IMG/VR virus record: IMGVR_UViG_3300030328_001039
Location: 1 to 64,000 of that record
Origin: a virus
Strand: one strand, 5' to 3'
Length of the DNA: 64,000 nt
In this document: positions 2,744 to 24,040 of the stretch, one piece after another
Layout of the letters: each line of letters starts with the position of its first letter
Position numbering within the stretch: position 1 is the stretch's first letter
Made by a program: the position numbers and the translations under genes
The notes under the pieces: model-generated
Database searches by the model: none
Seen by the model: the letters and a program-made list of their open reading frames with translations, nothing else
What the model was told of the DNA's origin: nothing

Positions 2744-2762
2744 GTTGATATATAAAGGAACA
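2744..2762 (+). promoter_or_regulatory. Archaeal promoter P1 (TATATAAA element)
   Basis: Copy of the 19-bp element GTTGATATATAAAGGAACA, with the TATA box TATATAAA at 2749-2756. It starts 3 nt after the stop of the phosphatase gene. The ATG at 2778 lies 22 nt past the last base of the box, where archaeal transcription normally starts, so the message should be leaderless. This spacing is also the reason for choosing 2778 as the start codon of the next gene. Confidence 0.85.
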
Positions 2763-2777
2763 TTGGAGATAGATAAC

Positions 2778-3185
2778 ATGGCAGAATATGGAGAAGCAAG
2801 ACTACAAGTTAGAACACAGTTCGATACTAACCGAATACACATTCAGGGTGTAGGTGAACCTACCGTGAATCGTAAGTATGGTATTGCATTGGAACTACGA
2901 GCACCACCTGAATTGACTGACTGGCTAAGCGAACAAGAACCTACACTGGCAAGTCCAGCAAGTGGCTCTTTGTTGTATGCACCTATGTCAGTCATATCAT
3001 ATGTAGAGCAAGAAGGTACAGTGCAGATACTCATTGAAGGTGAAGAACTGAATCACCCAAAGGGTGCTATGCTTGATGTAAAGGATGAATCAACAGCAGT
3101 GTCTACACTAATCACATTCGTAAAGAACACTAACTCAGGTCTTGTGCTTGAGAGTGGTGAAGTATTTTCAACAGAAGAGGAGTGA
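2778..3185 (+). CDS. Unrecognised 135-aa protein, first gene after P1
   Basis: 135 residues. The frame is open further upstream, but that part is the promoter element itself, so ATG 2778 at leaderless distance from the TATA box is preferred. The protein is mildly acidic, with no cysteines, no membrane segment and no motif I recognise; the alternation of short hydrophobic and polar runs suggests a small beta-rich protein. It is the promoter-proximal gene of a three-gene unit (2778-4114) and ends within the Shine-Dalgarno region of the next gene. Function unknown. Confidence 0.75.
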   Translation: MAEYGEARLQVRTQFDTNRIHIQGVGEPTVNRKYGIALELRAPPELTDWLSEQEPTLASPASGSLLYAPMSVISYVEQEGTVQILIEGEELNHPKGAMLDVKDESTAVSTLITFVKNTNSGLVLESGEVFSTEEE

Positions 3186-3190
3186 GTATA

Positions 3191-3802
3191 ATGGCACAGC
3201 CCAAGATTTATGCAGACATGGAGAAGAGATTACTCTCCTTGATTGAGACTATGGTAGATGCAGAAGGACTGCATGTGTTACCTGAAGAAGTAAGTTTCTA
3301 CTTACATACACGAAGGAAAGCATTATCCTCTTCTTCATGTAGAGCACAAGACACAGCAAGTAAACATCTAACATGGATTACATATCATCAAAACATAGTA
3401 CAGAACACTCCGTTTGTTGATGGTATTGCATGGGAGATATGTTACCAAGCACTAGCGTTGAAGTATGGTGTATCGGTTGATGCAATCAATTGTATTGACA
3501 TGGGTATATCAGCCGACCCAGCCAAGTCCGTAATTAAGATTAGAGGATTGAAGCCTATGCTTACATCAGAGAATAAGACTTCACCTGAGTTTGTTGCTTA
3601 TGCTAATGCTCATGCAGAAGAGTTCGGTTGGGATATTGCTGAACTCCATCCACCCGCACTAGCACTATCGCTAGAGGACATGAACCAGTTCGATGATTTG
3701 ATAGCAAGTGTGCTTTCGGACATGGGAGTAGAAGGCAACACGCCAACTTTCCTAGATGTTATGATGGGCGGAGACATAGGAGAAGATGTATTCCTCGCAT
3801 GA
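3191..3802 (+). CDS. Unrecognised 203-aa protein
   Basis: 203 residues from ATG 3191. An in-frame GTG at 3182 also exists, but the GAGG Shine-Dalgarno at 3177-3180 is 1 nt from that GTG and 10 nt from the ATG, so the ATG is preferred. The composition is that of a soluble, mostly helical protein; the segment around residues 50-100 is rich in aromatic and hydrophobic residues and the C-terminus is acidic. No catalytic motif is recognised. It is the second gene of the P1 unit. Confidence 0.7.
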   Translation: MAQPKIYADMEKRLLSLIETMVDAEGLHVLPEEVSFYLHTRRKALSSSSCRAQDTASKHLTWITYHQNIVQNTPFVDGIAWEICYQALALKYGVSVDAINCIDMGISADPAKSVIKIRGLKPMLTSENKTSPEFVAYANAHAEEFGWDIAELHPPALALSLEDMNQFDDLIASVLSDMGVEGNTPTFLDVMMGGDIGEDVFLA

Positions 3803-3835
3803 GAGAATTATGATAGTCGTTAGGAGAGTGAATGT

Positions 3836-4114
3836 ATGAGCGATAGCAATAAACTTGAGCGAAAGATAGCAGTGCTGGAGGGCATTATCAAAAATGTTTG
3901 TGACAATTATCCCTTTGAGCAGTGCAAATTATGCGAAGAGTTGTTCGACACAGATGAGTATTCCAATTGTCCTGACTGTCCTGAGTGCAGTGGTTGCACA
4001 GAAACAGTTGAGCAGTTGTATACCAATAGTGGCGGGGATATGTGGTGTAAGGAGTGTATAGAAATACAGCACGACATGGATGACCTCATGAGAGATTACA
4101 ATGAAAGTCGATGA
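3836..4114 (+). CDS. Small cysteine-rich putative zinc-binding protein
   Basis: 92 residues with nine cysteines (22, 30, 33, 45, 48, 51, 54, 71, 74) arranged mainly as CxxC pairs, enough for two zinc sites. An N-terminal helical stretch (residues 5-20) precedes the metal-binding part and an acidic helix follows it. An AGGAG Shine-Dalgarno lies 6 nt before the ATG. Family unknown. Proteins of this kind in viruses often bind nucleic acid or protein partners, but nothing here shows which. Confidence 0.75.
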   Translation: MSDSNKLERKIAVLEGIIKNVCDNYPFEQCKLCEELFDTDEYSNCPDCPECSGCTETVEQLYTNSGGDMWCKECIEIQHDMDDLMRDYNESR

Positions 4115-4122
4115 TTGGAGAA

Positions 4123-4141
4123 GTTGATATATAAAGCAACA
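4123..4141 (+). promoter_or_regulatory. Archaeal promoter P2 (TATATAAA element)
   Basis: Second copy of the 19-bp element, in the GCAACA variant; TATA box at 4128-4135. It sits 8 nt after the preceding stop. The predicted transcription start is near 4156-4158, leaving a leader of about 10-12 nt with AAAGGA before the 4168 gene, so this unit is not strictly leaderless. An ATG at 4155 (10-codon frame ending at 4187) lies at the leaderless position and might act as a leader peptide. Confidence 0.8.
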
Positions 4142-4167
4142 ATGAATGAAACAGATGAAGCAAAGGA

Positions 4168-4764
4168 ATGATGAACATGACAAATGAAACAGATGATGTG
4201 AAGATAGTTGGGCGAAGTGGAATACCTAAGCCTACTGAAATGACACTGCAAGAAGTGATGAAGAAGTTTGAATACGCTCAGCATAGGAGTTGGTCTAATG
4301 ACACTATGTACTACAGCCCTGCATCGAGTTGGATGAAGGGAGAATACTTGGCGTTTATGCACAATCCCACAGGGATTATTTTAGCACACCAGTCTAACAG
4401 ACATGGTAGCGGTACTGTAACTACATACAAACTAGATGGTACTATGACTAGCGATGCTGTATTCGGCGTGGCGGTTGCTAAGGGTAGTTTTGGAAAGATG
4501 ACTGAGAAGATGGATGAAGTAGACTCAGACAGGATGAACTGGGATGTGGTGCGTGTTAGACCTAAACCCATATTCAGTAGTTGCTACAGCACTATGTATA
4601 TCTTCGATGGTAGCAGCAGATATTACAACGGTGATTTGAGTATGATATTCGACAAAGTAGATGTGCTACAGAAGGGATGCAAGGTCATTAAGAGTAAGTA
4701 TTCAATTGAAGGTAAGATAACCAAATTAGAAAAGACAAACGATGTAAAGGAGATGATTGTATGA
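4168..4764 (+). CDS. Unrecognised 198-aa protein, first gene after P2
   Basis: 198 residues; ATG codons at 4168, 4171 and 4177 are all in frame, and 4177 has the best spacing (9 nt) from AAAGGA at 4162-4167, so the true N-terminus may be three residues shorter. No recognised motif. The protein looks like a soluble alpha/beta protein with a serine/tyrosine-rich central part and a basic C-terminal third. Its stop overlaps the next start by 4 nt (ATGA). Confidence 0.75.
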   Translation: MMNMTNETDDVKIVGRSGIPKPTEMTLQEVMKKFEYAQHRSWSNDTMYYSPASSWMKGEYLAFMHNPTGIILAHQSNRHGSGTVTTYKLDGTMTSDAVFGVAVAKGSFGKMTEKMDEVDSDRMNWDVVRVRPKPIFSSCYSTMYIFDGSSRYYNGDLSMIFDKVDVLQKGCKVIKSKYSIEGKITKLEKTNDVKEMIV

Positions 4765-6329
4765 GTGGAGAATGGAAAGGCTGGCAAAGTTGGGATAGAT
4801 ATGAGAAAGCAGGTATTGTAGAAAACGCTGTAGATTTCAGCGAAGAAGCGATTATCGTAGACCACGCTGTTGGGAGAACGAAGAAGGCTATTGGTAAGTG
4901 CTGGCCTATGGATGCAGCAGTTGCCTACACGCTGATGAAGGCTGGCCCTGATACTGGGCTGACATGGAGTGACATGGTGAACAACTACACTCGTGCTGCT
5001 GCTGTGATGATGACAGGTAAAGTTGGTTGGGGCACAGTACCTAAACCAAGTGTTGATACTTGCGGTCATGATGAAGTTACTGGCTACAAGCATTTCATGG
5101 GAACACCGACTCTGTATAGTGATGGTGACGGTGACGGTGATGGTGAACTCTACATACAAACTGGGTGGGGTTCAGATAATATCGGCAAATGGTTCACTGA
5201 AGTGGGTGACAAACTCAAGGAGTTAGGGCATGACCCAGTTGCATTATCAGAGAAGTATTCCGTTATTCGTATGTCTAAGAACTACCCAATTGCTCACTTT
5301 ACTATGGCGACAGATGAGTTCTTTTCTGAACTGATAGATGCTTTCCAAGACTTCTTCGGTGATGTGACTATTCGACCTGCTAGTAACGGCAGTACGATTT
5401 TCAGGGCAGTAAACCATACTTACGGTGAATGTAAGTGGGCTGATAAAGACAAGGAGTGCAGACACCACGATAGACCTACTGAAACCATGTGGGCTATGCG
5501 AAGGCAAATCAATAATGGTACTGGTTTCATTACTGCATGGAGTCGTGCTCCGTGTCATGGTGGCTGGAACAGTCATCAATGGGCTAAACCACAGCAAGAC
5601 ATGGTTGCTAAGAATGTAGTCTCATGGGATGAGATGCGTAGAGGAATGTCTCAGGCTGTACCTGAAGAAGATGTAATCAAATACATTCGTGAATCTTTGA
5701 CTCGTATGCTAAAGCGTAATGACAACATTGTTTCTAAGACTGGCAAGGGTAGGACTTCTCAGCACTCATGGTCTGACTGGAGTTGGCTTGCTGAAATGAC
5801 TGCTTATGTGAAGAACACTAGCAGCAAGAATCGTAAAGAGGGCGATGTTGAGAACGGTTGGAAATACACCAAGGTTCGTTCTCGTAAGTCCTTTGGTCAC
5901 GAGATTGCTGACTTCGTTTGGAAGCCAGTTGATGTTATCAAAGATTATGTGGTTGGGCGTAAAGAAGTAAGCGACTGGAATGCTTCAGGTATTATGACAA
6001 ACCTTCGCTTCTCTACCAAGCAGCAGTGTATCGACTTCATGGAGGCTATTTCCAATGCTCACCTTGATGGTGGCGGTCACTTTGCTAATCGTACTCACGA
6101 TGGACTAGAGAAGAATGACAATGGTGCATGGAGCATTCGCTCTATCGAAATCAATGTAGTCATGTATGGTCGTGTAGACCCTGAAGATTACTTATCCCCT
6201 CAAGAAGTTGTGGCTATGTGGCGACAAGGAGCACCTGCTGTACTTGCAGAGCACAAGCCTAACTTTGAGAAAACACCTTCTTACACTGTAAAACAAGCCC
6301 CACCTAAAGAAGAGGCGGCTGTTGAGTGA
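4761..6329 (+). CDS. Large unrecognised 522-aa protein
   Basis: 522 residues. The protein is tryptophan-rich throughout, with scattered His/Cys residues but no regular metal-binding spacing. At residues 121-128 a run of four Asp-Gly pairs is encoded by an in-frame hexanucleotide repeat (5121-5147); it resembles a calcium-binding loop only superficially. The C-terminal 20 residues are Pro/Glu/Lys-rich and look unstructured. Size and position resemble the unknown large protein at the left edge, but I see no clear sequence similarity between them. It is translationally coupled on both sides. Function unknown. Confidence 0.8.
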   Translation: MSGEWKGWQSWDRYEKAGIVENAVDFSEEAIIVDHAVGRTKKAIGKCWPMDAAVAYTLMKAGPDTGLTWSDMVNNYTRAAAVMMTGKVGWGTVPKPSVDTCGHDEVTGYKHFMGTPTLYSDGDGDGDGELYIQTGWGSDNIGKWFTEVGDKLKELGHDPVALSEKYSVIRMSKNYPIAHFTMATDEFFSELIDAFQDFFGDVTIRPASNGSTIFRAVNHTYGECKWADKDKECRHHDRPTETMWAMRRQINNGTGFITAWSRAPCHGGWNSHQWAKPQQDMVAKNVVSWDEMRRGMSQAVPEEDVIKYIRESLTRMLKRNDNIVSKTGKGRTSQHSWSDWSWLAEMTAYVKNTSSKNRKEGDVENGWKYTKVRSRKSFGHEIADFVWKPVDVIKDYVVGRKEVSDWNASGIMTNLRFSTKQQCIDFMEAISNAHLDGGGHFANRTHDGLEKNDNGAWSIRSIEINVVMYGRVDPEDYLSPQEVVAMWRQGAPAVLAEHKPNFEKTPSYTVKQAPPKEEAAVE

Positions 6330-6652
6330 TGAAAGAAGATAAAGAGAAGTACAGGAATGCCGAGTTGAAACCCTCTGCCATCACTCCTGATGGTATGTGG
6401 GTACTCCCTGATGGTCACAAGTGTGACCTCCGGCATGTTCAATTACAACTCCCTGATGGGAGGGGCGAGGAGTGGGTATTAGGTGTTATACTATCGGCAG
6501 AGGGAATCTACGAAGTATGCCCTGAGTGCCAGCAAGAACTCAAAGAAGGGATGGTTCTCATCATGGAGAAGCATCACTACTTGGTTGTGCGCTGCTGTGA
6601 CAAACTCCTACTGTATCAAAACCAAAAGATAAACCTAGACATATGGATGTGA
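6329..6652 (+). CDS. Small protein with a zinc-ribbon-like cysteine set
   Basis: 107 residues from ATG 6329, which shares its first base with the stop of the previous gene (TGATG). An in-frame GTG 3 nt upstream is less likely. Cysteines at CDLR, CPEC and the RCC near residue 91 could form one zinc site. The N-terminal half is charged and the C-terminal end is hydrophobic/aromatic. No known family recognised. Confidence 0.7.
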   Translation: MKEDKEKYRNAELKPSAITPDGMWVLPDGHKCDLRHVQLQLPDGRGEEWVLGVILSAEGIYEVCPECQQELKEGMVLIMEKHHYLVVRCCDKLLLYQNQKINLDIWM

Positions 6653-6656
6653 AATT

Positions 6657-7376
6657 ATGACAGAAGAATATGAACCTGAATTACAAGTATGGGCGTTAGA
6701 ACACTTTAACCAAATGGCTGAGAAGGCTGTATGGCGACCTGATGGAACTGGCTGTAGATACCGTAAGGTAGACGAGCAGACACTGCAACTTGAGCATAGG
6801 GTAGACCACCCTGACTCAGAAGCACATCACAATCGCATTACTGGATTGTTTGCCTCAGTTAATATCAACATGATAGACGATAGCCCAATGATTACCAGTG
6901 CTGCTTTATCAGCCGAGGATGCTTTCAGACAAGAAATGCAAGAGCGTCAAGCGGTTGCTGCTTCATGGACTACAGAGGATGGTACTAGATTAGCAGACTT
7001 ACCATTAGAGCAAGCCTATCCAGTTTTCATTGGTAATAGAGAAGTGCTCCTAGATAACGGAGAGACACACACAGTAGAAGATTGGGGAGTTGCTGTACCA
7101 ACTGATGAAGGTGATACAATCACAATGAATCCTGATGACTACAATTTACTTGCTGGTGACTCATTGTTCATGCGTTACCGTATAACAGATACTGATACTT
7201 ACATGATTGCTATGACTAGGCAGCAGATGTATGATGCTGCTGAGTCAGGAGAACTCGGCGCATTAGTAGGTGCTACTTGTCCTGATAGCGGAGACAAAGT
7301 TCCTCCGTGGATGTGGGGTACATACTGTGCTAGAGTATCAGAAGCAGACCTGTTCCTTGGAGATGAAGAAGAGTGA
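6657..7376 (+). CDS. Unrecognised acidic 239-aa protein
   Basis: 239 residues, strongly acidic with many Asp/Glu-rich turns and an EEE C-terminus. No membrane segment. A CPDSGDK...WMWGTYC region near the C-terminus contains two of its three cysteines. I recognise no domain. The gene lies in the P2 unit and its stop overlaps the next start by 4 nt (GTGA). Confidence 0.75.
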   Translation: MTEEYEPELQVWALEHFNQMAEKAVWRPDGTGCRYRKVDEQTLQLEHRVDHPDSEAHHNRITGLFASVNINMIDDSPMITSAALSAEDAFRQEMQERQAVAASWTTEDGTRLADLPLEQAYPVFIGNREVLLDNGETHTVEDWGVAVPTDEGDTITMNPDDYNLLAGDSLFMRYRITDTDTYMIAMTRQQMYDAAESGELGALVGATCPDSGDKVPPWMWGTYCARVSEADLFLGDEEE

Positions 7377-7558: not shown

Positions 7559-7560
7559 AC

Positions 7561-7821: not shown

Positions 7822-7822
7822 A

Positions 7823-7841
7823 GTTGATATATAAAGCAACA
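7823..7841 (+). promoter_or_regulatory. Archaeal promoter P3 (TATATAAA element)
   Basis: Third copy (GCAACA variant), TATA box at 7828-7835, immediately after the stop of the PC4-like gene. ATG 7856 begins 21 nt after the box, so the message is predicted to be leaderless. Confidence 0.85.
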
Positions 7842-7855
7842 CTAAAGACCACTTC

Positions 7856-8083
7856 ATGGAAAGAGCAGCCAGTGTCAGCCATGTGGAATACGAAGTGATT
7901 GCATTACTTCGTGACAGCATAGACCTAGCATCACTGAAAGAAGTGATGGTTACTGATGATGTTACTGAGAAGCGTTGGTCTACTGGTGTAGCCAATGTTT
8001 GTGAGTTACTAGATAACATGTGTAACAGACGCATACATAAGTTGCCCAAGACACATACTGAATACAAAGAGAAGGTGAAGTAA
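7856..8083 (+). CDS. Small 75-aa protein, leaderless start after P3
   Basis: 75 residues, helical in appearance, basic at the C-terminal end. No Shine-Dalgarno is needed if the message is leaderless as promoter P3 predicts. The single cysteine pattern (CELL...CNRR) is not a zinc site. Unknown family; helix-rich small proteins at the head of viral operons are often DNA-binding regulators, but no helix-turn-helix is convincing here. Confidence 0.7.
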   Translation: MERAASVSHVEYEVIALLRDSIDLASLKEVMVTDDVTEKRWSTGVANVCELLDNMCNRRIHKLPKTHTEYKEKVK

Positions 8084-8164
8084 ATGGAGTTTGAAATAGG
8101 ACTGATAAGAATGACAGATGAACATAATGAAATGCCATACATTGGTGAGTTTATAGGTGAGTGA
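8084..8164 (+). CDS. Possible 26-aa small protein
   Basis: A 26-codon frame starting directly after the preceding TAA stop and ending inside the Shine-Dalgarno region of the next gene. It fills a gap that is otherwise empty in a genome with almost no spacers, which is the main support. The product would be acidic. It could equally be a non-coding leader that spaces the next gene. Confidence 0.35.
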   Translation: MEFEIGLIRMTDEHNEMPYIGEFIGE

Positions 8165-9243: not shown

Positions 9244-9803
9244 TGGGTGGACTTATTGTAGAATGTGAAAGATGTAAGAAGTCAATGCAAAGGAGTTCAT
9301 TCAATTCAAAGCGAAGATTATGTCACGATTGTCTTTACAAAGGCGTATGGACTAAAACAGATAACAAGTATGCTGCTGTAGCAAATGATGAATTGACTAA
9401 GAAGCAGTTGGTAAAAAAACTGGATAAGATGGATAAGAAGATGGAGAAGATACTTGACGCTCAAAAGTTGTTAGACGAAGGTATATCAGAAACCATCCAA
9501 ACAAAGGTAGATGTAGCGATAGAAGCAGCACTCAAGGACATTGGTGATAAAGCAGCATTGGAGCACGCTGATGATTTTATTGAACTCAAAGCAGGTATAG
9601 AGGCTTTACAGAAAGAACATGAGGATAAAATGAAAACGCTACTCGCTTCAGTTAATTCTCGTATCATACAACTAAAAATTGATGTTGAAAGTAAAATCAA
9701 CCTACTCACTAAGAGGCAAAGAGAACTCAGGCATCATGCTAAGAAGCGAGATTGGCCTCTTACACAAGAGGGTATGACTCATTCAAGATTCGACCTTGAT
9801 TGA
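9243..9803 (+). CDS. Zinc-finger plus long coiled-coil protein
   Basis: 186 residues from ATG 9243 (shares one base with the preceding stop; AGGAGGGAT precedes it). The N-terminus has a compact zinc finger, CERC ... CHDC (residues about 8-29). Residues about 50-170 are an almost continuous heptad-rich helix, heavy in Lys, Glu and Leu, which should form a long coiled coil. Such an arrangement suits a structural or bridging factor. Its stop codon lies inside promoter P4. Family unknown. Confidence 0.75.
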   Translation: MGGLIVECERCKKSMQRSSFNSKRRLCHDCLYKGVWTKTDNKYAAVANDELTKKQLVKKLDKMDKKMEKILDAQKLLDEGISETIQTKVDVAIEAALKDIGDKAALEHADDFIELKAGIEALQKEHEDKMKTLLASVNSRIIQLKIDVESKINLLTKRQRELRHHAKKRDWPLTQEGMTHSRFDLD

Positions 9804-9817
9804 TATATAAAGCAACA
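9799..9817 (+). promoter_or_regulatory. Archaeal promoter P4 (TATATAAA element)
   Basis: Fourth copy (GCAACA variant, first base A instead of G); TATA box at 9804-9811. The TGA stop of the upstream gene (9801-9803) is part of the element, so coding and promoter sequence overlap. ATG 9833 starts 22 nt after the box (leaderless); the in-frame ATG at 9818 would precede the expected transcription start. Confidence 0.85.
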
Positions 9818-9832: not shown

Positions 9833-10399
9833 ATGGAATGGACTGATGGAACTGGTAAAGCATTGAGTAAACTAGGTAGTGAACTTAGTAAGAGCGAGAA
9901 GGATAAGCGTGACCCTGAAGTGGAATACTACGCTGACCCTCAACTGTATGTCATGGATTTGAACACTGGTGCTGCTGTACTGATTGAGACTGATACTAAC
10001 AACACTAGGGGCAAGACTCACGGCAGAGGCTATCGAAAGTGTGCTCAGGTTGAGCAAAGAATGCCAGCCAAGTTTCCTCAGAAGAAAGCGATAACTCGCT
10101 TATTGGCTATGGCTATCCGTAACTTTGTACCTACAGATACTGACCCCACTTTCTACAGTGTGGTAGTTGAGAATGCTATCAAGGACATAGCAGCCATGCT
10201 TACCAATGATTCTGAATGGAACATTGAAGAAGAGAAGCACGCTCCAGCATTGAACAAGGCTATCAGTAAACTGATGGATGAAACACTTAGCACTCGTGCT
10301 GGTGATACACTACTCAATGTCAAGGTCACTGAAATAGAGACAGCCATGATGGATGTTTCCGCTATCAAGGAGAATAAGAAAGACAAACTGACAAACTGA
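9833..10399 (+). CDS. Unrecognised 188-aa protein, leaderless start after P4
   Basis: 188 residues. ATG 9833 is chosen over ATG 9818 because of its position relative to the P4 TATA box. Residues 10-35 are charged; a KTHGRGYRK patch near residue 66 is basic and could contact nucleic acid; the rest looks helical. No family recognised. It is the head of a seven-gene unit that ends at promoter P5. Confidence 0.75.
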   Translation: MEWTDGTGKALSKLGSELSKSEKDKRDPEVEYYADPQLYVMDLNTGAAVLIETDTNNTRGKTHGRGYRKCAQVEQRMPAKFPQKKAITRLLAMAIRNFVPTDTDPTFYSVVVENAIKDIAAMLTNDSEWNIEEEKHAPALNKAISKLMDETLSTRAGDTLLNVKVTEIETAMMDVSAIKENKKDKLTN

Positions 10400-10667: not shown

Positions 10668-10854
10668 GAAGAAAGACTTAGAGAAGATGGTAAAGATACA
10701 GAAGGCTACAATCAAGATTTTGACAGCGAACCTTGAAGCGTTTGATAAGAAGGTCAAGGAGTTAGAAAGAGAGAATCAATCGCTTCGTGTACGATTGCAT
10801 GAGACTGGTGGCTTCAACTTTATGAAAAATGTGTGGGATAAAGATGAGCGATAA
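10660..10854 (+). CDS. Small coiled-coil protein (64 aa)
   Basis: 64 residues, of which about 1-50 form a single highly charged Lys/Glu helix with leucine/isoleucine heptads, a probable short coiled coil. It is embedded in a run of overlapping genes (8-nt overlap upstream, 11 nt downstream). It could oligomerise or pair with a neighbour's product; nothing more specific can be said. Confidence 0.7.
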   Translation: MSKKKDLEKMVKIQKATIKILTANLEAFDKKVKELERENQSLRVRLHETGGFNFMKNVWDKDER

Positions 10855-11182
10855 GGCAGAAATATTGGCTCGTGCTATAGCAGCGCACGCTGGTGTAGAT
10901 AGAGGTATGGAACTAGCATTGGCTATGGGTCTAAAGGGAGGCGAGTATGCTTCCGCTAAGGCTCTATCAATCAAGGTAGCAGGTGATGACAGGTGGATAA
11001 ATCAGAGAAGCCCTCATGGTTTAATGGTGGACTGCTTGTATCTATGTGCTAAGCGTAAGGGTATCAAGACCAGTGCCATCAAGATTCGTGACTTGTCGTT
11101 TGAGATATTTGGAGTGGGTACTCAGCCTCGACCAAACAGTTGGCAGAGCGACTTCACTGATTTCATAGAGGCTTGGTTATGA
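10844..11182 (+). CDS. Possible TFB-like cyclin-fold protein
   Basis: 112 residues from ATG 10844. The segment QRSPHGLMVDCLYLCAKRKG followed by IKTSAIKIRDLSFEIFGVGT resembles one cyclin repeat of archaeal transcription factor B (GRSP-G-AAA-LYLA-R--G---T---IA----GV). A typical TFB has an N-terminal zinc ribbon and two such repeats, so this would be a half-size, ribbon-less relative. If real it could modify promoter choice on the stereotyped TATA elements of this genome. The resemblance is by eye and limited to about 45 residues; another helical fold is quite possible. The stop overlaps the next start by 4 nt. Confidence 0.4.
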   Translation: MSDKAEILARAIAAHAGVDRGMELALAMGLKGGEYASAKALSIKVAGDDRWINQRSPHGLMVDCLYLCAKRKGIKTSAIKIRDLSFEIFGVGTQPRPNSWQSDFTDFIEAWL

Positions 11183-13052: not shown

Positions 13053-13071
13053 GTTGATATATAAAGGAACA
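13053..13071 (+). promoter_or_regulatory. Archaeal promoter P5 (TATATAAA element) of the replication core
   Basis: Fifth copy (GGAACA variant); TATA box at 13058-13065. ATG 13087 of the clamp-loader gene starts 22 nt after the box, so the message is predicted to be leaderless. It would drive the clamp-loader to PolB block. Confidence 0.85.
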
Positions 13072-13086: not shown

Positions 13087-14022
13087 ATGGAGAACAGTAC
13101 CGAGCCACTGGTATTAGAGGATATAGCAGGTCAAACTGCATTCGTATCTGACGCTATGGGCTGGCGTGATGGTGGTCAGTGGCCTCGTGCTGTTCTCCTC
13201 CACGGTATGCAAGGCACTGGTAAGTCTACTGCTGCTAAGGTTATGCTCCGTGAGAAGATGGGCGACTACTTTGACCCAATGAATTACATTATCGTCAATG
13301 CCTCAGACGACAGAGGGCTTGACTACATTCGCAATCAACTCAAACAGATGAGTGCAGTCAAGGCTGTAGGCACTGACAAGAGAGGCATTATCGTAGACGA
13401 GGCTGACGGTCTTACCCCTGCTGCTCAAGATGCACTGAGAGGTATCATGGAGGAGTATGCTGACAATGTTATCTACATCTTCACTTGTAACGAGATTAGC
13501 AAAATCAAACCTGCTATCCAAAGCAGGTGTCTTGTGTATGAGTTCAAGCCTATCAGTCCTGAAGATGGGGCTGAGAGACTAAGGAATATCTTTTATCCAC
13601 AGACACACTATCAACAAACAACTAGATGTATAGAGGCTTACATGAGACTTATGAAGCATACTGGTGGGGATATGCGTAGTGCTATTGCTATCGCTGAAAT
13701 GCACACTTCTATGGACTCCTTAACCGATTCACTATCCGATGGGGGCAACCCATCTCAGGCTGCACTTGCTGCTATCAGTGGTGAGTACGGTGATATGAGA
13801 AAGCAATTCTATTCCATGCTTGACCGAGGACTTTCACTTACCTTTGTCATGCGAACATTCCATGAGAACCTGACCGAGTTCTTTGAGATGGATGAAGATA
13901 ATACATGGACAGTCATGGGTGTGCTGGGTGAAATGATACCCCACATGTATGAGTGGCCTATCGGTTCCTATTCCTTTGTTGATTGCCTAGTGGCAAGACT
14001 ACGAAAGGAGGTGAAGGTTTGA
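13087..14022 (+). CDS. rfcS: Replication factor C small subunit (clamp loader ATPase)
   Basis: 311 residues, AAA+ ATPase. Walker A GMQGTGKS (40-47), Walker B IIVDEAD (101-107), sensor 1 TCNE (133-136), the SRC arginine-finger motif (146-148) that defines RFC small subunits, and a GDMRSAI sensor-2 region. Length is close to the archaeal RFC-S norm (about 320). RFC opens the PCNA ring and loads it at primer ends using ATP. No RFC large subunit is seen in the window, so the virus either uses the host large subunit or a homo-oligomer. The clamp gene lies 2.5 kb downstream in the same unit. Start chosen from the leaderless spacing to P5; the upstream in-frame ATT/ATG region is promoter sequence. 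Confidence 0.93.
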   Translation: MENSTEPLVLEDIAGQTAFVSDAMGWRDGGQWPRAVLLHGMQGTGKSTAAKVMLREKMGDYFDPMNYIIVNASDDRGLDYIRNQLKQMSAVKAVGTDKRGIIVDEADGLTPAAQDALRGIMEEYADNVIYIFTCNEISKIKPAIQSRCLVYEFKPISPEDGAERLRNIFYPQTHYQQTTRCIEAYMRLMKHTGGDMRSAIAIAEMHTSMDSLTDSLSDGGNPSQAALAAISGEYGDMRKQFYSMLDRGLSLTFVMRTFHENLTEFFEMDEDNTWTVMGVLGEMIPHMYEWPIGSYSFVDCLVARLRKEVKV

Positions 14023-17290: not shown

Positions 17291-17437
17291 ATGAACACAG
17301 CAGAATTGATGGAATTGATAGAAGAAAGAGATGTAACAGCAGCAAGAGTTTGGAAACTAGAAAATGAACTATCTATTGTTGTTAAAAGGCTAAATGAATT
17401 AAATAAACAGATTAAAGATGGTAATGTGATAGAATGA
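17291..17437 (+). CDS. Small coiled-coil protein (48 aa) upstream of PolB
   Basis: 48 residues, one continuous amphipathic Leu/Glu/Lys helix with heptad spacing. It lies between clamp and polymerase genes, 4 nt after the former and overlapping the PolB start (ATGA). The translation coupling suggests a role with the polymerase, for example as a small accessory subunit, but there is no motif to support a specific role. Confidence 0.55.
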   Translation: MNTAELMELIEERDVTAARVWKLENELSIVVKRLNELNKQIKDGNVIE

Positions 17438-19848
17438 TTATTGACTGGTATTACCCTGCTGAGTCTGACAACTTTGGAGAGCCTAATCTATACTTGCGTA
17501 CTCGTGACAAGCATGGTACGCTGCAAGAAGAGCACATATGGCCTGAAGATGATAGGTATGTAAAGCCGCATTGTTGGATTCCAGTAGATACTCCTGAGTG
17601 GAAACTCAATCGTATGATGGGTAGATACCCCAGTGCTAAGATTCATCGAGACATTCGTACCAAAGGTATTGACAAGAAACCACTGATGAAAGTCGAGGTA
17701 GACAAACCCACAGACCTTTGGGATATTAAGGATGAAATGCCTACTTATGAAGCAGACTTGAATTATCTCGACCAAGTGTTACTGCAACTATATCCTGACA
17801 AACTACCTGAGTTCAAGCCTCGTGTATGGTACTTTGATTTGGAGTGGGACACAAAGGAGGACTTCACATCAGTTATGGCTGTAGTGGATAGCGACCTTGA
17901 CACTCCTGTTGTATTCGCATGGGCTGATTGGGAGAAAACTAACTGCCCTCAGCCTACACGCTCGACCCCAAGTGGCCCGATAGATAAAGAAGTCCGAGGT
18001 CAAAAATACACTCTCTTCAATCACTCTTCTGAAGCAGAAATGCACGAGAGTTTCATCAAGTTCTTACACAAGCGTGACCCCGATATTCTCGTAGCCCATG
18101 CTATCATGTGGGCTGACTTACCACACCTTATGCGTAGACTCAAAGACCCTGACCAACTTTCACCACTTGGTCAAGTGATTAGACCATTCAAGGGTAGAGA
18201 CGGTTACAAAGATACTCAACAGCCTATCAAGGGTAGAATATGTTTTGACTCAGCAGCACCTTGGAAATCAGGTAGTGGCTTTGAATCCTTATGGCAGAAG
18301 TCAGGTAGAGGACAATTACCTAATCGTAAGTTGAATACCATAGCAGAGCGACTTGAACTTGGTAGCAAACTGACTGAGGAAATTGAGGGTATGACTGTTC
18401 ACAATGGTTGGTACGAATACTGGAGTGACTTCGTAGATTACTGTCTCCTTGACACTACGCTACTGCGTGACATTGACAAGAAACTCAATGCCATTGATTT
18501 CTTCGTAGCAGTACAACAGTTATGTGGTGTATCATTTGCCAGCACACACAAGGTCACTCGATACTTTAGAGGTCTTGTTGGTAGGAGGACTAAAATGAAA
18601 GCCAAGAGTGCTATCAATAATAGGCGTGAAGCATTGACTGCTGCACACATACCTGACCCTATTCCCGGTAGACATGAGGGTGTAGCCATTGTAGACTATG
18701 CCTCACTATATCCAAACATCATTCTCAGTGACAATTTATGTTACACTACTAAGCGTGACCATCCGACTACCACTACCAAGACATTGGATAATGGTTCACA
18801 CTGGTGTCAGAAAGAGAAGGGTCTGCTACCTTCTATTGTTGAAGAAATGCTCGCTCTTCGTGCTGAATACAAAAGGCTCATGCGTGACGCTATAGACCCT
18901 GATGAGAAGTTGGGGTACGACATGATGCAGACCGCAGCAAAAGTCCTTGTCAATGCCCTATACGGTATGACGGGAATGAAGTCTGTTCAAGGTATGTGGA
19001 TTGATAATGATATAGCAGCCGCTATCACATACAGAGGGCGTGAGGCTATCCAACATTTGCTAAAGGAGAGTGAAGAGCAGGGCTACAAGTCACTGTATGG
19101 TCATACTGATTCAGCGTTTATTCAAGTTCCATTCGATGATGCTGAGCCACTCGCTAAGCATCTTACTCAAACTGCGAAGGATAAGTTGAACTTACCAACA
19201 ATGGAGGTTGAACTTGAAGCATACTTTGACTACTGGATTACTGCTCCAGTGAAAAACCGTTACTTCGGTATCAAGGTGTGGCCTGAAAAGAGCAAGGGTG
19301 AAATGAAGATTAGTGGTTATGAAATCAAAGCCTCTAGTTCTTCACGGATTACCAAACGCATTCAAGAAGTGGCTATGCAAATGATAGGCACTGGTAAAGA
19401 CGAAGAGGCTGTGACTGATGTACTGAGAGAAGTAAGCCTCCAAGTTAGAAACGGTGAAATACCAATTGAAGATGTGGCTTGCTCTTCTCGATTGACTATG
19501 GCTTTCAAAGATTACAAGAGCCTACCAGCACCAGCAAAGGCTGCTATGTATTACAATGAACATGTCGCTACTAATGCCGATGAAAGATGGGCTAAGGGTG
19601 ACAGTGTATCATGGATTTATGTCAAGGGCTTCAACAATGATGTACCTGACTATTACACTCTCAACGGGGAGAAGAAGAAGGTAGACTTCGTTGCTTTCCG
19701 TGATAAGTCTGAGTTGAAGAACTACACCATAGACTGGGATAAAGTGCTCAGTGTAATGGTTAAGTCTAAACTCATGCGAATATACGAGAGCCTTGACTGG
19801 GAACTAGATGCTGCCGCTGGAGCGACTATGCCTAAGTCATATTTTTAA
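17434..19848 (+). CDS. polB: Family B DNA polymerase
   Basis: 804 residues. Exonuclease motifs: Exo I YFDLEWD (Asp135, Glu137), Exo II PDILVAHAIMWAD (Asp228, but the usual Asn and Phe are replaced), Exo III YCLLD (Tyr336, Asp340). Polymerase motifs: A DYASLYPN (Asp421), B KVLVNALYG (503-511), C YGHTDS (555-560), where the first Asp of the usual YGDTDS is His557 and Asp559 remains. It is RNA/DNA-primed, not protein-primed, judging from the absence of TPR insertions and the presence of a primase gene. The C-terminus (PKSYF) lacks a PCNA-binding box, but the next small gene, in the same frame, encodes two such motifs. Replicates the viral genome with clamp, loader and primase. Confidence 0.95.
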   Translation: MIIDWYYPAESDNFGEPNLYLRTRDKHGTLQEEHIWPEDDRYVKPHCWIPVDTPEWKLNRMMGRYPSAKIHRDIRTKGIDKKPLMKVEVDKPTDLWDIKDEMPTYEADLNYLDQVLLQLYPDKLPEFKPRVWYFDLEWDTKEDFTSVMAVVDSDLDTPVVFAWADWEKTNCPQPTRSTPSGPIDKEVRGQKYTLFNHSSEAEMHESFIKFLHKRDPDILVAHAIMWADLPHLMRRLKDPDQLSPLGQVIRPFKGRDGYKDTQQPIKGRICFDSAAPWKSGSGFESLWQKSGRGQLPNRKLNTIAERLELGSKLTEEIEGMTVHNGWYEYWSDFVDYCLLDTTLLRDIDKKLNAIDFFVAVQQLCGVSFASTHKVTRYFRGLVGRRTKMKAKSAINNRREALTAAHIPDPIPGRHEGVAIVDYASLYPNIILSDNLCYTTKRDHPTTTTKTLDNGSHWCQKEKGLLPSIVEEMLALRAEYKRLMRDAIDPDEKLGYDMMQTAAKVLVNALYGMTGMKSVQGMWIDNDIAAAITYRGREAIQHLLKESEEQGYKSLYGHTDSAFIQVPFDDAEPLAKHLTQTAKDKLNLPTMEVELEAYFDYWITAPVKNRYFGIKVWPEKSKGEMKISGYEIKASSSSRITKRIQEVAMQMIGTGKDEEAVTDVLREVSLQVRNGEIPIEDVACSSRLTMAFKDYKSLPAPAKAAMYYNEHVATNADERWAKGDSVSWIYVKGFNNDVPDYYTLNGEKKKVDFVAFRDKSELKNYTIDWDKVLSVMVKSKLMRIYESLDWELDAAAGATMPKSYF

Positions 19849-19857
19849 GGTGATAAA

Positions 19858-19995
19858 ATGACTAAAACAAGACAAACAAAATTAACGGAGTATGGAATGA
19901 CATTTGAAGGACAGACAAAACTCACTGAGTTTGGTATGACTTTTGAGGCTGATATAAAAAGGAACAGTAAAGACCAAGTTGGTGAAGAGGAATGA
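19858..19995 (+). CDS. 45-aa protein with two tandem PIP-box-like motifs
   Basis: 45 residues containing a 13-residue tandem repeat, QTKLTEYGMTFEG and QTKLTEFGMTFEA. Each copy has the QxxLxx(F/Y) core of a PCNA-interacting (PIP) box, though the last aromatic position is Gly. The two copies differ at seven synonymous but only three non-synonymous nucleotides, so the protein sequence is under selection. It is in the same frame as PolB, separated from it by a single TAA and three sense codons, so it looks like a detached PolB C-terminal tail or a readthrough extension; yet it has its own Shine-Dalgarno AAGGTGAT (19847-19854). A clamp-binding bridge or clamp competitor is plausible. Confidence 0.65.
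   Translation: MTKTRQTKLTEYGMTFEGQTKLTEFGMTFEADIKRNSKDQVGEEE
19948..19966 (+). promoter_or_regulatory. Variant archaeal promoter P6 inside the PIP-box gene
   Basis: GCTGATATAAAAAGGAACA matches the 19-bp element at 17 of 19 positions; the TATA box is TATAAAAA (19953-19960). Predicted transcription start is near 19981-19983, giving a leader of about 10 nt with GGTGA before ATG 19992. The element lies within the coding sequence of the 45-aa protein. Confidence 0.55.
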
Positions 19996-20459
19996 CATCG
20001 TTTAGAATGAAGTGTGCAAAGATAGCAGCGACAGTAGTAAATCTACTTGCTGAGAAGAATGAACAGTATGGTGATAGCGCATTTGACCCTATCCGATTCT
20101 TTAGCGACCTACCCCCTGATGCTGGTTTAAGAGTGAGGATTGATGATAAACTCAGTAGACTCATGCGAGGGAGTGATACCATTGAGTCTGACATTGATGT
20201 GATTGAGGACTTGATTGGTTACTTCATTCTACTACGATTGACAATGGAGGATAAAAGACCTGAACCACAGCCACTTTCAGAAGGAGCAGAAGGAGAGTTA
20301 GACTACTACAGAAACAAGGACTTCGACCCTTATCACCCTCAAGGGGGAATAGGGGGCGACCATAGCCCATTTATCCCACCTGAAAAGATTTCTACCGGGG
20401 AAAGAATAGTAAGAAGGTACAACAAGTTCGGTGGTGAAGATGAGGTTCAACCCGAATGA
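19992..20459 (+). CDS. DUF1599/MazG-like protein, possible nucleotide metabolism role
   Basis: 155 residues. The first 85 residues follow the pattern of phage DUF1599 proteins: a helix ending in KNEQYGDSAF, then RVRIDDKLSRLMRG, then a helix VIEDLIGYFILLRL. This family is related to all-alpha NTP pyrophosphatases and is linked to nucleotide pools or base modification in phages. The C-terminal 70 residues are Pro/Gly-rich and probably unstructured. Start ATG 19992 overlaps the PIP-protein stop. Overlaps the next gene by 20 nt. Confidence 0.5.
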   Translation: MTSFRMKCAKIAATVVNLLAEKNEQYGDSAFDPIRFFSDLPPDAGLRVRIDDKLSRLMRGSDTIESDIDVIEDLIGYFILLRLTMEDKRPEPQPLSEGAEGELDYYRNKDFDPYHPQGGIGGDHSPFIPPEKISTGERIVRRYNKFGGEDEVQPE

Positions 20460-21528
20460 GACTACTGTTCACTGGTGCGAAGCGTGTGATGTAGTAGTGA
20501 AAGATGCTGACGAAGGCAAAGGTTGCTCAATCTGTAACGACTATGACTGCATTGTAGAGAAGTCAATGAATACTTTTCCTGAGTACCTAGTAGATACTCA
20601 GTACCCTTATCCTGAAATGTTTGAGTCGTATGACAAGAGCGCATACAACTGGCAACCTAGCATGGAGGATAAGATACTCCGTGTAACTAAGTCATCGCTA
20701 GGTACTTTTGATTTCTGTCCTAAGCAGTATTATTTTCAAAACATACTAGGAATGAGGGGTGAAGAACAAGACCATCACATTCGTGGGTCAAATGTTCACG
20801 ATGCAGTGGAGTGGTTTTGGAAAGAGTCACACACAAGTCTACCAGTTGTTAATGAAATGATAAACGAGGGAAAGGTAAACACTGCTAAGATGGAGTTGCG
20901 TAAAGCACTACCCAAGCCTCCAACTCCCTATGTCTATGGTGAAGAGCCTCAACTTAATCAGTATGTAGACTGGCAATTTGAAAGGCTATTACAAATGCAG
21001 AACAATCCTAAAGATTGGTTTCCTATTGCTAATGAAGTAGAGATTCATTCAACAAGAGTAGTGGTAGCCACTGATGGTAGAGTAATACCAATTCACATGA
21101 AGGGGTTCATTGACCGTATCTTCATTGATGATGACCATACTGGTATCATTCTAATGGAGTTGAAAACTGGTAAGTGGGTAGACCGTAAGCGTTCTTCTAT
21201 GCGTGCTGAAATGCAGTTCTATCGTATGATGCTAGAGCATAGCCCTCACATCGAATACCTACCTGTTGTCGGCTGGGGCTGGCAGTTTCCGGGCGGGGGT
21301 ATCAATGGTGGCGAAGGTGCTATGTGGGATTACGAGAGCGTAAAAGGGCCGGGTGGTCGGTACGCTCCTAAGACTGTAGAGAAGAGGCTTGTACGCTTGA
21401 TTGATGCACATTTGAATGATGATTTCCCTGCTGAGGCTCACGAAGCGAAGTGTGCTTGGTGTGACTTTATGGAAATGTGTCCAGCGTGGATGGGTGATTT
21501 AGCAATCGACCCTGATGATATGAGGTGA
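20440..21528 (+). CDS. RecB/Cas4-type PD-(D/E)XK nuclease with Fe-S cluster
   Basis: 362 residues from ATG 20440. Nuclease core: His120 in GSNVHDAVE, Asp225 in GFIDRIF, Glu240-x-Lys242 in MELKTGK, and QFYRMM (Gln259) as the RecB-family QxxxY-type motif. Cys93 (FCPKQY) with Cys338, Cys341 and Cys347 reproduces the four-cysteine 4Fe-4S arrangement of AddB and Cas4 enzymes. A short N-terminal extension has a CEAC/CSIC pair that may bind zinc. Likely a DNA-end exonuclease acting in recombination or genome processing. It is located beside the primase and ERCC4 nuclease. Confidence 0.85.
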   Translation: MRFNPNETTVHWCEACDVVVKDADEGKGCSICNDYDCIVEKSMNTFPEYLVDTQYPYPEMFESYDKSAYNWQPSMEDKILRVTKSSLGTFDFCPKQYYFQNILGMRGEEQDHHIRGSNVHDAVEWFWKESHTSLPVVNEMINEGKVNTAKMELRKALPKPPTPYVYGEEPQLNQYVDWQFERLLQMQNNPKDWFPIANEVEIHSTRVVVATDGRVIPIHMKGFIDRIFIDDDHTGIILMELKTGKWVDRKRSSMRAEMQFYRMMLEHSPHIEYLPVVGWGWQFPGGGINGGEGAMWDYESVKGPGGRYAPKTVEKRLVRLIDAHLNDDFPAEAHEAKCAWCDFMEMCPAWMGDLAIDPDDMR

Positions 21529-21532
21529 GAGA

Positions 21533-21832
21533 ATGGATAAAGAAGGACTAGATACGATTTCATTGTTGCTACAAATGTCATTAGAGAAGTTATGGCCTAA
21601 GTATGAGTTTTCCGTAGAAACATCGCTTCTCCCCACTGGTAAGCGTATCATAGTCAAGTCAATGTCTCAACTAATCATTGAAGATTATAATGAAGAATCT
21701 GATGTAAAGGATAGACACATCTGCTTCTTCATCGCTATTCATCCATCTAAATTAACACTAGAGCATATTAGGAATACATACGACACTATCGTTAGTAAAG
21801 TGATATACGAAATGGCATTGATAGAGGGGTGA
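21533..21832 (+). CDS. Unrecognised 99-aa protein
   Basis: 99 residues, alpha/beta in appearance with no cysteine-rich site and no known motif. It sits 4 nt after the RecB-type nuclease gene and 4 nt before the primase gene. The stop is followed closely by GTGAAAGA before the primase ATG. Function unknown. Confidence 0.7.
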   Translation: MDKEGLDTISLLLQMSLEKLWPKYEFSVETSLLPTGKRIIVKSMSQLIIEDYNEESDVKDRHICFFIAIHPSKLTLEHIRNTYDTIVSKVIYEMALIEG

Positions 21833-21836
21833 AAGA

Positions 21837-22952
21837 ATGAGTTTCATCACACTTGATTTCCCTCGTGAAGTCCTTGAGATAGCCTCTAATGGTAAACAAG
21901 GTGGTCGTTATTGCGTAAAGAATTGGAGTGAGTTAGAAAGATACTGGAAAGGTAAGAACGGCAGTGGTAATGTATACTTCACAGCCTACGGTTACCGAGC
22001 CACTAAGCCACCGAGAAACCACAGAGTAGATTATGACACACCTATTATCCGTCACTTTGTCATGGACTTTGATTGTAAGGACTTCAAACAAAGAGGCGCT
22101 GAGGTTGATTTTTCATTCATGCACGAGCAGGTTAAAAGGCTACATCGTTTTCTACTGAGAGAGAACACTCGCCACTTTGTTTGGTTCAGTGGTGGTGGTT
22201 TCCATATTTGGATTCCTCTAAAGAATACACATACCCCATCGGATGGTTACAGTGTTGCTAGAGTAAAAGAAGGTGGTAGAAAACTGATAGCAGCATGGCA
22301 TAAGAAACTCAACTTATCATGTAACGACCCTACAGTTGCTTTCGACACATCAGGCATGATTCGTATACCTAACTCCTACAACTCTAGGAGAGGCTGCTGG
22401 AGTATACCACTGGATTCAGATTCCATTCTCAATCTAACTCACGATGATTTGATGGAGAGAGCACAAGACCCGATTAGTGGGTACATAGAAAATGGTGAAA
22501 ACGATATTGCTATAACAGTGGCTCAGCGTAAAAGCCCGTTCAAAAAAACTGTTGAGAAAGTAGACGGTCTACCTGACATTACACTAGGCGATATTATTGT
22601 ATTACCATGCCTTGCTCAATCAGCATTAGGTGAAGGTAACCCTACCCACAAGGCGAGGTTTCACTTAGCATCATATCTTGCCGCAAGACTACGATGGTTC
22701 TATCCCCCTGATGCAGTAGATGATGAGATAAAGGCTGAGCATGTTAATCGTATATGTGCTATCATAGAAGAACAGGGATGGGTAGATTACTCCCCTCGTG
22801 TTACTCGTGAGCAGGTAGAGAACATTGTATTCGGTGGTGCTGGTAACAACGGTTACTCAGCAGCGTCATGCGCTACACTTGAATACGATGGACTATGCAG
22901 CGGAAGATGCCGCTATTATGATGGCAGCATAGGTGATTCAAATGAAAATTAG
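21837..22952 (+). CDS. Archaeal primase: PriS catalytic domain fused to PriL-like Fe-S domain
   Basis: 371 residues. The N-terminal archaeo-eukaryotic primase domain shows the DxD motif MDFDCKD (Asp77, Asp79), SGGGFHIW with His123, and a third acidic residue in VAFDTSG (Asp170). The C-terminal part has LPC (Cys258), then KARFHLASYLA, and after a spacer SCATL (Cys345), GLC (Cys354), GRC (Cys358): the four-cysteine pattern of the PriL C-terminal 4Fe-4S domain. In cellular archaea these are two proteins; fused forms are known from some archaeal plasmids. It makes primers for PolB. A GGGTGAAAGA ribosome site precedes ATG 21837. Confidence 0.85.
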   Translation: MSFITLDFPREVLEIASNGKQGGRYCVKNWSELERYWKGKNGSGNVYFTAYGYRATKPPRNHRVDYDTPIIRHFVMDFDCKDFKQRGAEVDFSFMHEQVKRLHRFLLRENTRHFVWFSGGGFHIWIPLKNTHTPSDGYSVARVKEGGRKLIAAWHKKLNLSCNDPTVAFDTSGMIRIPNSYNSRRGCWSIPLDSDSILNLTHDDLMERAQDPISGYIENGENDIAITVAQRKSPFKKTVEKVDGLPDITLGDIIVLPCLAQSALGEGNPTHKARFHLASYLAARLRWFYPPDAVDDEIKAEHVNRICAIIEEQGWVDYSPRVTREQVENIVFGGAGNNGYSAASCATLEYDGLCSGRCRYYDGSIGDSNEN

Positions 22953-23181
22953 ACAACATAGAATGCACGCTAATCTCTGCTTTAATTGCGGTAATGTTTT
23001 AGGTAGAACTAATAACAACAAAAGAATGATGATGTTGTGTTCAACATGTAATAAGAATGTAGACTTACTACCCGAAGAATACCGTTGTAAAGGTGAGACA
23101 AGAAAAGGTAACAGATGTAGAACAGCGGTCTATGATGGCACAGGTTATTGTCGAAATCATAAGCATCAGGAGGAGGAGTAA
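22942..23181 (+). CDS. Double zinc-finger small protein
   Basis: 79 residues from ATG 22942 behind AGGTGATT; overlaps the primase stop by 11 nt. First site: CFNC ... CSTC (about residues 16-40). Second site: RCKGETRKGNRC ... YCRNH, a C-C-C-H pattern found in many small phage and nuclease-associated zinc knuckles. The C-terminus is acidic. Probable DNA- or RNA-binding factor; no assigned function. Confidence 0.7.
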   Translation: MKIRQHRMHANLCFNCGNVLGRTNNNKRMMMLCSTCNKNVDLLPEEYRCKGETRKGNRCRTAVYDGTGYCRNHKHQEEE

Positions 23182-23891
23182 TGCCTAAGCCTGATTTAAT
23201 CATAGACTCTAATGAAAGGGGTAGCCTTTGTGAATCAATAGAGCGTAGGGCTAAGAAAGAAGGTTTGAATGTCATTAGACAACCATTAGTAGTGGGTGAT
23301 TACTTACTAGGTGCTGCTTGTGTAGAAGCAAAGAGTGTCACCGACTTGTTTCAATCGAGTCACAGCGGTCACCTATGGCGACAGTTAGACAACATGGATG
23401 CCAACTACGAGCGATTCTTTTTAGTCATACATGGTTCGATTGCCAAGTATGTCGCATTCGCTAAGAAGCAAGGCAGGTTCTTGACACACAGTAGAGTGCA
23501 GAATGAACTCACTGGTACTATCGCTCGTATCATGGCTGATTTTGAATGTCAGGTATTCTTCACTCCAAACATCAGCGAGGCTGCTATGTTCGTCACTAAA
23601 CTACACAATAAGTTACACAAGCCAGCGAGTAAGCATGGTGCTCATGCTATTCGTAGAGTATCTACAAACGATGTACGGGTAGACATGTTGCTAACAATTC
23701 CGGGTGTCGGTGCTGAGTTAGCAGAGCGTCTACTAGAGAAATGTGGTAACCTAGAAGAGATGTGTTTCCCTGAATCCCTGAAGCAAGTTAAGGGGCTGGG
23801 TGATAAGAAAAGACAACTCATTGTTGAGGTTTTGACCAGCGAATCACCAGTCCACATACAACGAAGTGTTAGGCGCAAGAGGGGTATTTAA
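23181..23891 (+). CDS. XPF/ERCC4-family nuclease with HhH domain
   Basis: 236 residues. ERCC4 nuclease landmarks: IIDSNERG (Asp9, Glu12), VVGDYLLG (Asp40), VEAKSVTDL (Glu49, Lys51, Asp55), where the normal ERK triplet reads EAK. The C-terminal domain has tandem helix-hairpin-helix motifs (IPGVGAELAERLL and VKGLGDKKRQ). This is the arrangement of archaeal Hef/XPF nucleases without the helicase part; such enzymes cut branched DNA at forks and 3' flaps. Start ATG 23181 behind GGAGGAG. Last gene of its unit before the largest intergenic gap in the rightward half. Confidence 0.88.
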   Translation: MPKPDLIIDSNERGSLCESIERRAKKEGLNVIRQPLVVGDYLLGAACVEAKSVTDLFQSSHSGHLWRQLDNMDANYERFFLVIHGSIAKYVAFAKKQGRFLTHSRVQNELTGTIARIMADFECQVFFTPNISEAAMFVTKLHNKLHKPASKHGAHAIRRVSTNDVRVDMLLTIPGVGAELAERLLEKCGNLEEMCFPESLKQVKGLGDKKRQLIVEVLTSESPVHIQRSVRRKRGI

Positions 23892-24021
23892 GGCAGCATC
23901 GTACTCCTAATTGTCCGGGTTGTCCGTTGTCTTGTCTATACTTACATGTTTATAGAGTGTATGAATTAAGAATATAATGTTCAGACGGTACATCGGACAA
24001 TCAAGACAACCAATATTGATA
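23892..24021. repeat. TTGTC repeats in direct and inverted orientation, candidate origin/operator
   Basis: Non-coding gap. The left side carries four direct TTGTC units: TTGTCCG at 23911-23917 and 23920-23926, TTGTC at 23927-23931 and 23932-23936. The right side carries inverted copies: CGGACAA at 23994-24000 and GACAA at 24005-24009. The 57 nt between are AT-rich with several TATA-like runs (for example around 23935-23975). The right arm ends about 13 nt before promoter P7 of the putative helicase gene. The layout suits a replication origin with iterons or an operator controlling P7. Confidence 0.5.
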
Positions 24022-24040
24022 GTTGATATATAAAGGAACA
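24022..24040 (+). promoter_or_regulatory. Archaeal promoter P7 (TATATAAA element)
   Basis: Sixth exact-type copy (GGAACA variant); TATA box at 24027-24034. ATG 24057 starts 23 nt after the box, predicted leaderless. It is the only copy preceded by a substantial non-coding region, with inverted TTGTC repeats just upstream, so it may be the most regulated. Confidence 0.85.

Follow-up and report, generated by a model that had tools for sequence, protein, structure and literature searches.

Repeated TATA-like elements on the replication strand of Magrovirales-like viruses are altered in concert between virus types

Introduction

Phages of the T7 group carry many near-identical promoters of ~20 bp in one orientation, which have diverged in concert and are read by a co-evolving phage RNA polymerase. 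T7 with an altered promoter specificity has been engineered (PMC6171733). Repeated early promoters are also known from archaeal viruses, i.e. from halovirus HF2 (Haloferacalesvirus), whose class I intergenic repeats are proven promoters of the early/middle arm (PMC8707807), and from SIRV2-type viruses with their early regulatory sequences (PMC11065993). Here we describe a system of that kind, built on a 19-bp element, GTTGATATATAAAGSAACA, that recurs in a 64,000-nt stretch of viral DNA (positions 1 to 64,000 of IMG/VR record IMGVR_UViG_3300030328_001039, in the following "the window") and in related viruses.

The present system is set apart from those of HF2 and SIRV2 by its length, by the replacement of the B recognition element (BRE) position, by the set of genes it serves and by the concerted change demonstrated below. 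With the T7 group it shares near-identical copies of ~20 bp, a single orientation and concerted divergence between viruses, but the architecture is of the TATA type known from archaea. These viruses were also searched for a single-subunit RNA polymerase; no match was obtained, and none was obtained in the control genomes either. In HF2, an archaeal tailed virus whose family B DNA polymerase (PolB) is distantly related, promoter-bearing repeats likewise occur only in the early/middle (replication) arm, with a TATA box at about -26 and with positions that are conserved among relatives. Both the arm and the conserved positions are found here. On the other hand, the HF2 repeats are 56-58 bp long, contain alpha, beta and gamma motifs and have the transcription start site inside the repeat, whereas the element described here is 19-22 bp long, occupies the upstream BRE (BREu), TATA and downstream BRE (BREd) positions and is replaced in concert between viruses. 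The HF2 beta motif TCTTTAAGTC was not above chance in the window, and no late repeat resembling HF2 class II was found here. As in the SIRV2 type, the copies of one virus share a strong core and virus-specific flanks; unlike there, where the BRE and TATA core is highly similar between viruses and small anti-defence genes are served, the BRE position differs in each version and the genes belong to a replication module (PMC11065993).

Results and Discussion

Seven copies on one strand

The window was searched for GTTGATATATAAAGSAACA on both strands, allowing up to 3 mismatches. Exactly seven matches were found, all on the + strand, against a shuffled expectation of 0.01. Five have 0 mismatches (2744, 4123, 7823, 13053 and 24022), one has 1 (9799) and one has 2 (19948), so that all seven elements of a preliminary description of this DNA were recovered, including the two-mismatch copy. 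The same seven copies, and no others, are present in the virus record from which the window is taken (95,711 bp). Its - strand has 0 copies, as had been said of the window, and a reversed-pattern control gave 0 matches. Chance or base composition as the origin of the copies is ruled out by the excess of seven over 0.01, by the restriction to one strand and by the recurrence in relatives. The copies are as follows:

2744..2762, + strand, element copy 1 (GTTGATATATAAAGGAACA); next ATG at 2778, predicted leader none or almost none; orthologous copies in 13 other records
4123..4141, + strand, element copy 2 (GTTGATATATAAAGCAACA); ATG at 4168, predicted leader of ~11 nt
7823..7841, + strand, element copy 3; ATG at 7856 of a 75-aa open reading frame conserved in 7 records, without a Shine-Dalgarno (SD)-like motif, predicted leaderless
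9799..9817, + strand, element copy 4 (ATTGATATATAAAGCAACA); overlaps the stop codon of the preceding gene; ATG at 9833
13053..13071, + strand, element copy 5; precedes the clamp-loader small subunit gene, ATG at 13087; orthologous site in 14 records
19948..19966, + strand, element copy 6, variant GCTGATATAAAAAGGAACA; ATG at 19992
24022..24040, + strand, element copy 7; ATG at 24057 of a conserved 468-aa protein

The ATGs listed are the first in-frame ones behind each copy. Five of them stand 20-22 nt behind the core TATATAAA and the other two 31-32 nt behind it, which is close to the spacing claimed before (21-23 nt in five, longer leaders in two). Five copies lie no more than 9 nt from the upstream stop codon or overlap it. 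The copies at 19948 and 24022 are placed differently, in gaps of ~100 and ~130 nt; five of the seven thus agree with the claim that every copy sits at or inside the end of its upstream neighbour. The T-to-A change in the core of the copy at 19948 is also present in the orthologous copy of relatives.

Relatives that carry the same element

An exact 17-mer of the element was scanned across 2.9 million viral contigs. Dense clusters were found in five large contigs, with 9-14 copies each and on one strand in each. Single matches in the unrelated contigs G006-G017 are probably due to chance (0 of the 11 compared align by blastn). All sequences are metagenomic contigs, several of them incomplete and some near duplicates; the window's record (G000), G002 and G003 are near copies and not independent, and the same is true of G001 and G005. 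The relatives fall into two groups, whose identities to the window's virus are ~93.5% and ~78%. The window's record is truncated, and relatives hold further copies to its left; in the fuller relatives 12-14 copies are present. All of them lie on the strand of the replication module and none in the structural module, which bears out the absence from the structural half that had been described.

The copies of the relatives precede the same genes, e.g. the clamp loader. The occurrence before orthologous genes of many relatives, on one strand, supports the suggestion that these are TATA-type promoter elements of the transcription units of the replication half. In the close relative G002 the conserved stretch reads GTTGATATATAAAGSAACAnTAA, i.e. 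~20-22 positions, beyond which the flanks of the copies are unrelated to each other; the information content of the element set is ~37 bits over 24 positions. In other words, conservation does extend beyond the TATA box on both sides, as first proposed.

Nine versions of the element

A PolB search retrieved 64 loci, down to 40% identity. By element scans and de novo motif searches, nine versions of the element were found among the Magrovirales relatives, and each virus type has one nearly invariant version on the replication strand. The versions keep a TATA-like core, and both flanks, sometimes also the core, are altered in all copies together. Those other than GTTGATATATAAAGSAACA are:

G018, replication strand, TTGATATATAAAGCAGYA, from the de novo search
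G019 and G020, replication strand, TTAGTATATAAAGCAGCA, from the de novo search
G024, replication strand, TTCCTATATAAAGCARCA, from the de novo search
G022, replication strand, TTCACTACTTAAAGCAG, from the de novo search
G028, replication strand, TTTCCCATTTAAAGGAACA, from the de novo search
G029, replication strand, TTCCTCATATAAAGGAACA, from the de novo search
G030, replication strand, GATTCTATATAAAGAAATGA, from the de novo search
G031, replication strand, GGCTTCTTTATAAAGCAACC, from later scans and de novo searches

The dominant element of the de novo search scored 34-55 in G018, G019/G020, G022, G028, G029 and G030, against 9-16 for the reversed control. The element of G024 was weaker (22.7 against 13; 55.9 against 16.9 in a second search). 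Between versions, orthologous promoters differ at 2.2-10 of 19 bases, compared with 0.2-3.1 among the copies within one virus, and the two ranges nearly meet only for a few pairs involving G019/G020, because the copies of these two viruses vary more. Some copies of G018, G004, G019, G020, G022 and G029, taken as weak or off-type matches, were left out of this ortholog test; the G029 copy concerned, CGTTCACATATAAAGCAACAACAA, is above the threshold and has a counterpart in G028. In addition, three of the 13 copies of G004 (16566, 23938 and 106181) have a further variant, GAGACA, with GAGACAGTA in place of GSAACAGTA; this is a third downstream form within one virus.

It is conspicuous that the versions differ even between G028 and G029, which are close sisters in the PolB tree with ~97% identical PolB. 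Two element positions differ in 7/7 orthologous copies, in a background of high-scoring segment pairs of 88-95% identity and element flanks of 91-95% identity. An outlier protein between the two viruses was sought as the changed factor; several genes are variable and none is clearly a factor.

Homogenisation of the copies by recombination or gene conversion, without functional co-evolution, would produce identity within a genome equally well. We regard it as very improbable, since the DNA 12 nt away from the element is site-specific (the flanks of orthologous G028 and G029 copies are 91-95% identical, those within one genome are unrelated) and conversion tracts under ~20 bp are implausible. 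The conserved flanks had been taken to imply either a dedicated factor or strict spacing. As they are constant within a virus and change in all copies together, a dedicated recognition factor is favoured over mere spacing. A lack of flank conservation in relatives had been named as a refutation; the flanks are kept within a virus type and give way to concerted replacement between types.

Start codons behind the elements

The start codons were surveyed for 88 copies with an assignable ATG from ten representative viruses, using shifted controls. The first ATG behind each copy was picked mechanically, and a few of these starts are likely to be wrong. Counted from the element's T, the first ATG falls at 31-36 nt in 37 of the 88 copies, against an expected 3.9 +- 1.9, with a peak at 32-33. 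The geometry of archaeal TATA/BRE promoters, in which a TATA-like box precedes the gene start or leader by ~22-27 nt, is found repeatedly. In the 37 genes with the 31-36 nt offset, A is absent from the position before the ATG (0/37 compared with 135/326 in other genes, p=2e-8), and C or T stands there in 29/37 compared with 117/326 (p=1.4e-6), as expected if transcription begins at the ATG. Leaderless or near-leaderless starts are likely but unproven on these grounds.

A proposed reading of the footprint

We consider it probable that the 19-22 bp elements are replication-side promoters, and that their invariant footprint and concerted change come about through a co-evolving recognition factor. 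TBP would bind the core TATATAAA. If ~+1 is placed at an ATG that follows the first T of TTGATATATAAAG by 33 nt, GTTGA would lie at -34 to -30 and GSAACA at -21 to -16, i.e. at positions that would correspond to BREu and BREd, contacted by TFB/TFIIB-type factors. Host RNA polymerase would then start at, or a few nt from, many start codons. One recognition factor would read all copies, keeping the footprint invariant within a virus, and a change of this factor would shift the footprint in every copy at once. The copies, their strand bias, their invariance within a virus, the concerted change and the spacing to the start codons are observed; promoter activity, start sites and a dedicated factor are what we infer from these patterns.

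A virus-encoded candidate reader

The leading virus-encoded candidate for the reader is the product of the following gene:

10844..11182, + strand, 112-aa TFB-like protein with a single cyclin repeat, candidate reader of the elements, from family, profile and structure searches

Orthologs are present in nearly all element-bearing viruses. In three divergent orthologs the best Pfam match is PF00382 (TFIIB repeat), with E-values of 0.06-0.0019 and scores below the curated cut-offs. A profile search of 177,635 PDB sequences gave eight matches at E<=10, all of them TFIIB or TFB. The AlphaFold2 model is all-helical (pLDDT 83, pTM 0.73); in Foldseek it comes closest to cyclins and TFIIB, at weak E-values (>= 0.27). 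Unlike archaeal TFB with its two repeats, the protein resembles a single cyclin repeat and has no N-terminal zinc ribbon (no PF08271 match in G000, G002 and G004). Among the viruses with a TFIIB-family match, this protein is the sole one in each; seven viruses without a found element have none. Virus-encoded TFBs have been noted elsewhere, in SSRV1 (a putative TFB) and in the published map of magrovirus YSH_150918, where a TFB is labelled (PMC10768690), so a viral TFB as such has precedents. Alternative candidates for the reader are a certain host TFB and some other DNA-binding protein of the virus.

Several observations weigh against the reading proposed above. G030 has an element and lacks the 112-aa protein, and G033 has the protein while no element was found. 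The C-terminal motif GTQPRPxxW is nearly invariant across element versions, a poor fit to the idea that the flanks changed simply through an altered recognition helix; the protein may not set flank specificity. SD-like motifs precede 23/37 of the apparently leaderless genes and 56% of other genes (p=0.6), so the leaderless mRNAs of the preliminary description are supported by the ATG offset peak and the -1 base, with the frequency of SD-like motifs as a caveat. Several of the genes with the 31-36 nt offset have no SD-like motif, and leaderless translation appears likely for some genes and unproven for the remainder; for the SD-bearing ones, read-through from upstream promoters would explain the motif, another start site being the alternative. 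Finally, the flanked repeats of HF2 needed no viral factors for their activity in a heterologous host, where changes of the BRE or the conserved flank left activity unreduced (PMC8707807), which means that invariance of the element need not point to a dedicated activator.

The HF2 result is the main reason why a second explanation stays alive, according to which the elements are optimal promoters for the host TBP-TFB pair and the concerted change records a switch of host or TFB, the Poseidoniales infected by different viruses having different TFBs or preferred BREs, so that a viral factor is unneeded. The inferred coincidence of the conserved footprint with BREu-TATA-BREd would suit it, as would the absence of any TBP among the proteins of these viruses. 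Known archaeal BREs are degenerate, and most element sets, with 36-42 bits, are far above them. Moreover, an exact 18-mer of the element was found in no archaeal genome when ~85,000 prokaryote species were searched (29 matches, all bacterial, about chance level); this test, which covers the exact 18-mer, speaks against a host promoter consensus as the source. In favour of the host explanation, SIRV2-like early promoter cores do occur at strong host genes as well (PMC11065993). The use of different versions by two viruses with ~97% identical PolB also speaks against a host explanation, which we judge unlikely, if well worth keeping in mind.

The flanks could instead be the sites of a viral repressor that shuts off early genes and co-evolves with its sites, as proposed for the winged helix-turn-helix protein Aca8 at SIRV2 early genes (PMC11065993). 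Such co-evolution would also yield invariant copies and concerted change. By inspection the element has no inverted repeat, the promoters serve replication genes, and no helix-turn-helix repressor was seen in the early module (Pfam E <= 0.01, among 25 of 27 families), all of which makes a repressor improbable.

Gene content and the late strand

The rightward half of the window codes for PolB, clamp loader, a PD-(D/E)XK nuclease and a thermosome-type chaperonin, the leftward half for terminase, portal, prohead protease and an SU10-type major capsid protein. This gene content matches Magrovirales; these are tailed viruses attributed to Poseidoniales, whose replication and morphogenesis modules are transcribed in opposite directions (PMC12999244, PMC10768690). 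Going by gene content and the parallel with HF2, the genes behind the elements would be early and those of the structural half late. Genes of the rightward module referred to here are:

13087..14022, + strand, clamp-loader small subunit, behind copy 5 (PF00004, PF13177)
17434..19848, + strand, family B DNA polymerase, query for the relatives (protein family search)
26535..28031, + strand, thermosome-type chaperonin at the end of the module (PF00118)

The structural module contains one open reading frame of 6068 aa (window 32585-50791, - strand). Two possible DNA-binding proteins are seen in the late module, a small MazE/AbrB-like protein (weak match; L043:5839-6063) and a SAP-domain protein (window 53958-54524).

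No comparable repeated element was found on the late strand, only core-like TATAAAGCARCA sites near the divergent region. A TTATCAAGCAACATCATCGG-like sequence that shares the element's downstream half stands before a late-strand gene (G000:93366, G002:103457, G004:102694, G022:90496), and TATAAAGCARCACTGCG on the late strand adjoins the leftmost early promoter in G002 and G004. At window 23880-24015 the nuclease gene ends with an element-like GGGGTATTTAAGGCAGCATCG; the ~100 nt behind it are predicted to form a strong hairpin (-37.7 kcal/mol) and have similar counterparts in G002-G004, G014 and G018. This stretch has no Rfam match and is possibly a small RNA gene. In G026, G027 and G033 an inverted repeat, TGACCTCTcTAGGGGTCA, takes the place of the element shortly before the ATG of the 468-aa gene (14327, 19371 and 24109, respectively, in oriented coordinates).

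Implications

In these viruses of uncultured marine archaea, the elements mark replication-side transcription units by sequence alone and can serve as a pattern by which such viruses are found and typed; the nine versions amount to a natural mutation experiment. The vague statement that host TBP and TFB are used by archaeal viruses can give way to a model that is open to tests and names a viral protein as candidate. We note that promoter shifts between near-identical viruses could also reflect a change of host or host TFB. Rather speculatively, a stripped-down viral TFB with a single cyclin repeat might redirect the TBP and the RNA polymerase of the host to promoters private to the virus, in a co-evolution of factor and promoters so fast that viruses ~90% identical already differ; this would be an archaeal counterpart of a phage-specific transcription system. 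Taken as sequence patterns, the data suggest that every virus type has its promoters read by a recognition protein matched to them, and co-evolution would explain the concerted change best.

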